Assembly: GCA_029210625.1 (NCBI GenBank)
Contig: JARGFU010000019.1
Span: forward strand, 1 to 64,000
Direction of reading: 5' to 3'
DNA length: 64,000 nt
From: Deltaproteobacteria bacterium
GTDB lineage: Bacteria > Myxococcota > Myxococcia > SLRQ01
The position numbers were made by a program, and so were the translations under genes. How positions within the stretch are numbered: position 1 is the first letter of the stretch; each line of letters starts with the position of its first letter. Shown here in pieces: positions 29,422 through 32,158 of this stretch. The notes under the pieces are model-generated. The model was not told the DNA's origin. It was given only the letters and a program-made list of their open reading frames with translations, and ran no database searches.

Positions 29422-30489
29422 ATGTCCGAGTTCGCCGAGAAGCTCAAGAGCTACCTGCCGGGGGGCGGCACCGGCCGACGGGGCCGGAGCGCCGGTCTGC
29501 TGGTGCTCATCGCGATCACCACCGTGCTCTTCTACCGGGCCTGCACCCAGTACGTGCCGCCCCACCAGTTCGCGGTGAAGGAGTCGAAGTACTTCGGCGG
29601 CATCCAGGAGGGCGTCTACGAGGGCGGCCAGCTCTACTTCCAGGGCTTCGGCGTGACCTACCACCGCTTCCCCAAGACCTGGCAGGTCCTCGACTTCAAC
29701 AACAACGAGTACGAGAAGATGCTGGAGGACGAGCTCGAGGGCTACAACAACGAGGGCGCTCTGGTGATCCCCTCCTCCGAGGGCTTCCGGAACTCCTTCG
29801 AGATGACGGTCATCTACCGGATCAAGGATCCGAGCATCGTCATCGACAAGGAGCGCGGCGTGGGCATGGGGCGCCTCTACGAGAAGCACGTGCGCACCAA
29901 GACGGCGCCGGCCCTCAAGGAGGCCTTCGGCCGCCTGCAGGCGCAGGAGCTCTACGACGTGGACAAGCGCCACCCGCCCACGATCGAGGCGAAGAAGCTG
30001 CTGAACCACGAGCTCAACCCGGTGGGCATCGAGGTCGGCGAGGTGCTGGTACGCCGCTTCCGCTACATCCCCTCCTACGAGGAGAAGATCTCGGCCAAGG
30101 TGCTGCAGCGCAAGCTGCAGATCGCCAACGAGGAGCAGGCCAAGGCCGCCACCGAGGCCGCCCTGGTCCGCAAGATCAACGCCGAGGGACAGGCCAAGGT
30201 GACCATCGAGGTGCAGCGCGCCGACAAGGAGCGCCGGATCATCCTCTCGGAGGCCGAGCTCTATCAGCGGCAGAAGGACGCCGAGGGCCGCCTCCTGGTC
30301 GAGCAGGCCGAGGCCGCGGGCCAGGAGATGGTGAACAAGGCCTACGAGGGCGCGGGCTCGAACCGCATCGTCGGCATCGAGATGGCCAAGAAGGCGTCGG
30401 CCATCAAGAAGGTCTACATGACCGCCTGCGAAGACGGCGGCATCAACCCCATGGACCTCGGCAGCATGGTCCAGAAGATCGCGCAGTGA
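29422..30489 (+). CDS. SPFH (band 7) protein with N-terminal membrane anchor
   Basis: A 355-residue SPFH protein: a basic N-terminus (GRRGRS), one membrane helix (LLVLIAITTVLFYRA), then the SPFH domain (beginning YVPPHQFAVKESKYFGG) and a long charged coiled coil (IANEEQAKAATEAALVRKINAEGQ region) ending hydrophobic. This is the HflK/HflC plan, with the SPFH domain outside the inner membrane. SPFH proteins form large cages around membrane proteins and proteases such as FtsH. Here it is followed 11 bases later by a second SPFH gene encoding a lipoprotein, so a two-component cage is likely. No FtsH gene is nearby. Confidence 0.85.
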   Translation: MSEFAEKLKSYLPGGGTGRRGRSAGLLVLIAITTVLFYRACTQYVPPHQFAVKESKYFGGIQEGVYEGGQLYFQGFGVTYHRFPKTWQVLDFNNNEYEKMLEDELEGYNNEGALVIPSSEGFRNSFEMTVIYRIKDPSIVIDKERGVGMGRLYEKHVRTKTAPALKEAFGRLQAQELYDVDKRHPPTIEAKKLLNHELNPVGIEVGEVLVRRFRYIPSYEEKISAKVLQRKLQIANEEQAKAATEAALVRKINAEGQAKVTIEVQRADKERRIILSEAELYQRQKDAEGRLLVEQAEAAGQEMVNKAYEGAGSNRIVGIEMAKKASAIKKVYMTACEDGGINPMDLGSMVQKIAQ

Positions 30490-30500
30490 GGAGGACGCAC

Positions 30501-31526
30501 ATGAACACTCGCAAGCTCGTTCTCTTCTCCACCTTCCTCACCCTGCTCGGAAGCGCCGGCTGCGTGCCGCGCTCCACCGACGCCAACGAGGTCGGCGTTC
30601 GCTTCTGCAAGATCTTCTGCGGCGAGGAGCGCGCGGAGATCATCGAGCCGGGCCGGACCATCTTCATGGTCCCGGTGATCAACGACTGGTACACGCTCGA
30701 CATCTCGATGCAGGACTTCTACATGACCCGCGACCCGGAGAGCGGGGATCGCCGGCGGCGAGACGACCTGCTCTTCAAGACCCGCGAGGGCAACAACATC
30801 TCCCAGGACGTGGTGATGACCTGGAAGCTCGACTTCCGGCAGGCCGAGCGGATCATCGAGGAGGTCGGCCCTGACATCGAGCACATCAAGGAGAAGTACG
30901 TCCGGCCCATCGCCCGAAGCGTCATCCGGGACCACTTCTCGAAGCTCAACTCGGACGAGTACTACGAGGGCCAGCGGCGCTTCGAGGAGGCCAAGAACGC
31001 CACCATCGCCCTGCGCGAGAACTTCGCCCCGTACGGCATCATCATCGACCAGGTGAACCCCCGCGCCTACCAGTTCGAGGACCCGAACTACCAGGAGGCG
31101 ATCAACGCCGCGAAGGAGGCGGGGCAGGACCTCGAGAAGTACCTCCTCGAGAAGGACTCGCAGGTCGAGTTCTGGAAGAAGGAGCTCGAGAAGCAGATCG
31201 GCGCCTCGAACCAGACCATCGCCGAGGCCGGCGGCGCCTCCGGCTCGATCCGCCACGCGGCGGACGCCGCCCTCGAGGAGCGGAAGAACGAGGCCAACGC
31301 CATCCTCGCGGAGAAGGAGGCCGAGGCGAAGGCCATCCGGAAGCTCAACGAGGCGATGATGAGCCGGGGCGGTGAGACCGCGGTGAAGATGGAGTACGCC
31401 CGGCACTTCAACCCGGACCAGATCACCGTGCTGCCCTGCGCCCAGGGCTCGGGCGGGGTCACGGTGCAGCGCCTGGACATCAACGATCTCATCGCCGCCG
31501 AGACGGCGAAGGCGGCCACCCGATGA
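30501..31526 (+). CDS. SPFH-domain lipoprotein
   Basis: A 341-residue protein whose signal ends LLGSAGC, giving a lipid-anchored Cys21 with Val at +2, which points to the outer membrane under the E. coli Lol rule. The SPFH domain starts ANEVGVRFCKIFCGE; then comes VSPFH-like VMTWKLDFRQAERI and a charged coiled coil (EERKNEANAILAEKEAEAKA). SPFH proteins usually carry a membrane helix, so a lipoprotein version is unusual. It is coupled to the upstream SPFH gene and overlaps the next lipoprotein gene by 4 bases (ATGA). The ATG at 30501 has a GAGGAGG ribosome site. Together with 29422-30489 it could form a cage across the periplasm; this is inference. Confidence 0.82.
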   Translation: MNTRKLVLFSTFLTLLGSAGCVPRSTDANEVGVRFCKIFCGEERAEIIEPGRTIFMVPVINDWYTLDISMQDFYMTRDPESGDRRRRDDLLFKTREGNNISQDVVMTWKLDFRQAERIIEEVGPDIEHIKEKYVRPIARSVIRDHFSKLNSDEYYEGQRRFEEAKNATIALRENFAPYGIIIDQVNPRAYQFEDPNYQEAINAAKEAGQDLEKYLLEKDSQVEFWKKELEKQIGASNQTIAEAGGASGSIRHAADAALEERKNEANAILAEKEAEAKAIRKLNEAMMSRGGETAVKMEYARHFNPDQITVLPCAQGSGGVTVQRLDINDLIAAETAKAATR

Positions 31527-32158
31527 CGCCCAGGCTCACCCTCGCAAGCGGCGCGCTGATCCTGGCCCTCCTGGCCGGCGGCTGCGCCCACTACGTCGTG
31601 GTGGAGGACCCGCCGGCGGTGAACCTGCGGGAGTTCACGACGATCGGGGTGGTGCAGTTCGCCTGCGAGAAGGAGCCCCTGGCCCAGAACGTCACCCAGC
31701 GCTTCATCGCGACCATGCAGAACGCCCAGCCCGGGGTGCGCGTCCAGCGGCTGGGCCCCGCCGCCGACGTGCTCGCCACCGTCGGCGGGACGAGCTTCGA
31801 CGCCGCCACCCTGCAGAAGATCGGCGCCCACTGGAAGGTGGACGCCATCATCGTCGGGGAGCTGAAGGTCTCGAAGCCCCGGCCGCAGGTCCGGGTGGGC
31901 GTGAACCTCGACTCGCTCTCCGCCGACATGAACGTGGACGGTGATCTGACCGCCTCCCTCCACCCCGCGGCCGACGGCTCCCTGCTCTGGACGAACGGAG
32001 CCCACGGGACCTGGACCCTCGGCGGCGCGGGCGTGGGCAACGGGCTGCGGGTCGGCGTCAGTGACCCCGTGCAGCGCTACCACCAGATGCTCGGCGAGCT
32101 GGTGGAGGTCACCACCCGGGAGTTCCGGACGACCTGGAGACGCCAGCGGGTCGACTGA
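31523..32158 (+). CDS. Small lipoprotein in the SPFH operon, unknown function
   Basis: A 211-residue lipoprotein (LLAGGC, Cys21; Ala at +2). The body has alternating short strands and helices, including DAIIVGELKVSKPRPQ and a segment near the end (GELVEVTTREFRTTW). The fold is compatible with a TolB-N/CsgG-like periplasmic module, but no motif is decisive. Its start overlaps the stop of the SPFH lipoprotein (ATGA), so the two are translationally coupled, arguing for a shared complex. Function unknown. Confidence 0.72.
   Translation: MTPRLTLASGALILALLAGGCAHYVVVEDPPAVNLREFTTIGVVQFACEKEPLAQNVTQRFIATMQNAQPGVRVQRLGPAADVLATVGGTSFDAATLQKIGAHWKVDAIIVGELKVSKPRPQVRVGVNLDSLSADMNVDGDLTASLHPAADGSLLWTNGAHGTWTLGGAGVGNGLRVGVSDPVQRYHQMLGELVEVTTREFRTTWRRQRVD

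Follow-up and report, generated by a model that had tools for sequence, protein, structure and literature searches.

In the known SPFH cages, the N-terminal anchors all lie at one end and on one membrane (PMC11260169, PMC12048511). HflK and HflC, the pair of SPFH proteins surrounding FtsH in E. coli, alternate in one ring with all of the transmembrane helices at the wide end, and flotillins 1 and 2 likewise form an alternating parallel ring (PMC11260169, PMC12048511). Other relevant systems are the mitochondrial prohibitins 1 and 2, the SPFH lipoproteins of phages (phrog_200) and the combinations of an SPFH protein with NfeD, such as QmcA-YbbJ and stomatin with NfeD. Here we describe a tandem pair of SPFH genes, termed SPFH1 and SPFH2, located in a 64,000-nucleotide stretch of DNA (the window) from a member of the Myxococcota. 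A search of the open-access literature found no description of this pair.

Gene arrangement and membrane anchors

Both genes are on the forward strand, SPFH1 (29422..30489) encoding 355 amino acids and SPFH2 (30501..31526) encoding 341. The spacing of 11 bases from the SPFH1 stop to the SPFH2 ATG was confirmed from the sequence, the coordinates and reading frames of the original prediction being correct, and a ribosome-binding site for SPFH2, GAGGAGG (30488..30494, forward strand), overlaps the SPFH1 stop. Pfam Band_7 matches were detected in SPFH1 (29554..30156; E=8e-18, 65.5 bits) and SPFH2 (30576..31139; E=2e-19, 70.5 bits), both above the curated cut-off of 23.6 and, hence, indicative of an SPFH superfamily domain in each protein. 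The flanking genes encode a secretory-lipase-like protein upstream and a hybrid histidine kinase and a YaeQ protein downstream (Pfam). While the SPFH fold is shared with QmcA-YbbJ and with stomatin, the Pfam scan detected no NfeD gene among the neighbours of the window pair, so that the locus is not an SPFH-NfeD operon, and QmcA falls into a different clade.

The N terminus of SPFH1 consists of a positive stretch followed by a single hydrophobic helix (about residues 24-42, 29491..29547; residues 19-41 in the predicted model), which GRRGR precedes. This arrangement is that of an N-in single-pass anchor and should, therefore, place the SPFH domain in the periplasm. A hydrophobic segment of 19 residues was present in 96 of 102 distinct SPFH1 homologues. 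SPFH2 starts with a predicted lipoprotein signal peptide (residues 1-20, 30501..30560) containing an n-region, a hydrophobic stretch and a lipobox Cys: MNTRKLVLFSTFLTLLGSAGC. The lipobox reads LLGSAG-C21-V22, so that the predicted lipidation site is Cys21 (codon at 30561..30563) with Val at +2, exactly as had been proposed. The lipobox Cys was found in 101 of 105 distinct SPFH2 homologues, counted after removal of repeats as 99 by a script filter and 2 (L017 and L085) by eye, which is far beyond chance. Among the 99 scored homologues, the +2 residue was V, T, A, I or another residue and in no instance D or K.

The reading of SPFH1 as a second lipoprotein, due to a Cys at the end of its helix, was rejected, as a Cys was present in just 46 of the 102 distinct homologues and a canonical lipobox in one. 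The difference between 101 of 105 SPFH2 proteins with a lipobox Cys and a single canonical lipobox among SPFH1 proteins argues that asymmetric anchoring is a stable trait. The Cys was lost in four SPFH2 relatives (L107, L114, L126 and L128), all of which have a hydrophobic N-terminal segment instead. Three of these (L126, L114 and L128) show no evident cleavage motif and look uncleavable, while L107 might be cleaved; two of the four are sisters in the tree described below, and four exceptions are few.

A comparable switch of anchor was observed among SPFH proteins of phages and a halovirus (L145, L146, L159, L160, L161 and L162), with a lipobox in the three phages of Gram-negative hosts that were examined; the proteins of two Staphylococcaceae phages and of the halovirus lack the Cys and carry a hydrophobic segment. 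As a guide to the location of SPFH2, these proteins are ambiguous. Separately, the genome of the window encodes another SPFH protein with a lipobox-like N terminus, LLAAWVGSC (L057; G000:C8:194224-194799), possibly a further SPFH lipoprotein, whose placement in the tree is unsure.

Conservation and family placement

SPFH2 was detected in 40 of 195 Myxococcota genomes, with SPFH1 adjacent in the loci fetched. A scan of genome contigs with a single-protein query gave no match, while a profile scan of the genomes of 84,980 species detected 225 relatives. Among the best 80 of these 225, which were kept, record titles indicated Desulfobacterota, Acidobacteriota, Omnitrophota, Hydrogenedentota, Spirochaetes, a member of the PVC group and others besides Myxococcota. 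SPFH1 was immediately upstream of SPFH2 in 110 of the 112 loci examined, and the remaining 2 loci stop at a contig edge. These comparisons indicated that the pair, with one transmembrane and one lipoprotein member as originally predicted, is real and old and has been conserved as a unit over several phyla. One locus (L129; CAMAWH010000002.1) from a metagenome-assembled genome titled Klebsiella pneumoniae carries the SPFH pair together with the WRGGD gene described below in an arrangement of the Myxococcota type, and the title is probably wrong.

In a maximum-likelihood tree, which was rooted at its midpoint and in which two long rows are unsure, all SPFH1 proteins formed one clade (support 100/98) and all SPFH2 proteins another (99/99); the two were joined as sisters (97/94) and split from HflK, HflC and QmcA with a support of 99/98. 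The branching of SPFH1 and SPFH2 was largely mirrored in most groups, as expected if both travel together. With the NCBIfam hflK and hflC models, SPFH1 scored 12.7 bits to hflC against a cut-off of 134.4, and SPFH2 had no match. The "HflK/C-like" anchor originally assigned to the first gene thus holds for its topology but not for its identity. The pair resembles HflK/HflC in consisting of adjacent genes for two paralogous subunits, each with a periplasmic SPFH domain, a long helix and a similar predicted fold, but differs in forming separate clades and in the predicted anchoring of the second subunit by a lipid rather than by a transmembrane helix. The clades of the tree argue that the pair is not HflK/HflC but the result of a parallel duplication, and it would come from its own ancient duplication alongside those of HflK/HflC and of prohibitins 1 and 2. 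The same genome has a second set of tandem SPFH genes (G000:C2:263475-264993), for which an assignment as HflK/HflC proved wrong; these genes are QmcA-like and group with QmcA in the tree.

The phage lipoproteins of phrog_200 resemble SPFH2 in combining an SPFH domain with a lipobox at the N terminus, as observed in the members examined from phages of Gram-negative hosts, and SPFH2 matched this family with an E value of 4e-29. However, they are shorter (about 280-300 amino acids), are encoded by a lone SPFH gene in the two stretches examined from phages of Gram-negative hosts and branch next to the pair but outside it.

A third gene of the window (31523..32158, forward strand) encodes a small lipoprotein with its own lipobox, LLAGG-C21, and its ATG overlaps the end of SPFH2 as ATGA. 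The coupling that had been predicted therefore exists but is confined to this genome. A single homologue (29% identity, G156) was found in 195 Myxococcota genomes, on a different contig from the SPFH pair of G156, and in the locus most closely related to that of the window (∼60% identity in SPFH2), a different lipoprotein is encoded a few hundred bases further downstream. The small lipoprotein was, hence, rejected as a third member of the conserved unit, and of the three genes, only the SPFH pair is kept together in relatives. At L053:261-1421 (minus strand), the sole homologue adjoins a gene whose product has an OmpA-like-looking C terminus.

A more recurrent neighbour encodes an unnamed protein, ∼200 residues long, that has a WRGGD motif in addition to two hydrophobic segments. 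This gene is upstream of SPFH1 in most of the fetched Myxococcota loci and downstream of SPFH2 in several acidobacterial loci; upstream copies were recorded in L033, L036, L037, L039-L046 and L048-L051 (for example, L039:7515-8156) and a downstream copy in L034. No copy was detected in the genome to which the window belongs, in a search run without a positive control. The WRGGD protein is likely to be a true partner of the SPFH pair, but had no match in Pfam or the PDB and, hence, provides no indication of function.

Predicted architecture and membrane location

In a profile comparison, SPFH1 and SPFH2 aligned over their entire length (E=1e-49), and the Cys predicted to carry the lipid in SPFH2 fell opposite the point at which the transmembrane helix of SPFH1 ends. 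Fold models, generated as single chains (pTM 0.56-0.60), predicted that each protein has a single SPFH domain and a single helix of 94 residues, the helix lying at residues 217-310 of SPFH1 (30070..30351) and residues 195-288 of SPFH2 (31083..31364). A long helix after the SPFH domain, as in other members of the superfamily, is thus predicted for both. The best fold matches of the models were prohibitin, HflC and stomatin. A search of the PDB with single sequences yielded nothing useful, while by profile the best PDB match of SPFH2 was prohibitin (E=2e-7). Prohibitins 1 and 2 are, like the pair, two SPFH subunits, in their case of one ring, but are mitochondrial and showed only ∼17% identity in the structural match.

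For an alternating parallel ring on a single membrane, the subunits must be equal and carry their anchors in the same place, and SPFH1 and SPFH2 fit this description. Our preferred reading, to which we assign a probability of roughly 0.6, is that the pair forms one SPFH hetero-oligomer located at the inner membrane, on its periplasmic side. SPFH1 would be held by its transmembrane helix and SPFH2 by a lipid on Cys21, the lipid taking the place of the second subunit's transmembrane helix. The two subunits would alternate around the ring with their SPFH domains as the base, and the equal long helices would make up the wall of a dome, either closed or open in part. This dome would probably enclose an area of the inner membrane together with its proteins, the general job of such domes, possibly including the FtsH protease. 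The alternating inner-membrane assembly is favoured by the end-to-end alignment, the equal wall helices, the anchors in the same place and the variants with a hydrophobic segment. The Lol route cannot carry a transmembrane helix to the outer membrane, and the variants with a hydrophobic segment in place of the Cys consequently point to the inner membrane as the site of SPFH2 action.

The evidence against this reading comes from the +2 position. Asp at +2 is the inner-membrane retention rule of E. coli. In Myxococcus xanthus, Lys was found at +2 in 8 of 12 inner-membrane lipoproteins, and the sorting rule differs between bacteria (PMC3222651). As neither of these retention residues occurred in any of the 99 scored SPFH2 proteins, SPFH2 may be located in the outer membrane, although tight assembly with SPFH1 could retain it at the inner membrane. 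Export is also possible, since this genome encodes LolA and LolCE-like proteins; a match to LolB was not found. The original prediction was a cage spanning the periplasm, a single structure in which SPFH1 is anchored in the inner and SPFH2 in the outer membrane. The +2 rule, with Val here, is its sole positive evidence, the Lol proteins being compatible with it; the narrow end of flotillin cages can contact a second membrane, though via C termini and not N-terminal anchors (PMC11260169). In both proteins, however, the anchor is equally far from the SPFH domain, and the two walls are co-linear and equal, so that a spanning cage would need an antiparallel mix of subunits, unlike the alternating, one-membrane cages of HflK/HflC and flotillin. 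The replacement of the lipid anchor by a hydrophobic segment resembling an uncleaved transmembrane anchor is a further point against it, and we consider the spanning cage quite improbable. If true, the periplasm would be crossed by a compartment with protein walls, a design that several phyla have conserved. An outer-membrane SPFH2 could alternatively form its own homo-oligomer, co-expressed but not co-assembled with a separate SPFH1 homo-oligomer in the inner membrane. The same lack of Asp and Lys at +2 is consistent with this arrangement, as is the existence of lone SPFH lipoproteins in phages of Gram-negative hosts, one of which is annotated as an outer membrane lipoprotein. Strict one-to-one co-inheritance, the largely mirrored trees and the SPFH2 homologues in which a hydrophobic segment replaces the lipobox make two separate oligomers unlikely, if somewhat less so than the spanning cage.

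FtsH and the meaning of the pair

A special case of the inner-membrane hetero-oligomer, rather than an alternative to it, is that the pair stands in functionally for HflK/HflC as a regulator of FtsH. The window's own genome encodes one FtsH over the cut-off, elsewhere than the pair, while the hflC model had no match there and the hflK model none over the cut-off; an hflC match over the cut-off was also absent from 37 of the 40 pair-bearing Myxococcota genomes. However, HflC exceeded the cut-off in only 44 of the 195 genomes, so that most lack it anyway, and three genomes carry both systems. This overlap of 3 genomes compares with 9 expected (p=0.006, uncorrected for kinship). The link to FtsH comes from genome content, and a stand-in role is a tentative proposal, a reasonable guess and not a result.

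The pair adds a further paralogous SPFH pair to HflK/HflC and prohibitins 1 and 2, one in which the division of anchors between the subunits is fixed. If the pair forms a cage, it would serve as a natural experiment on whether SPFH domes need their transmembrane helices for function or only for attachment to the membrane.
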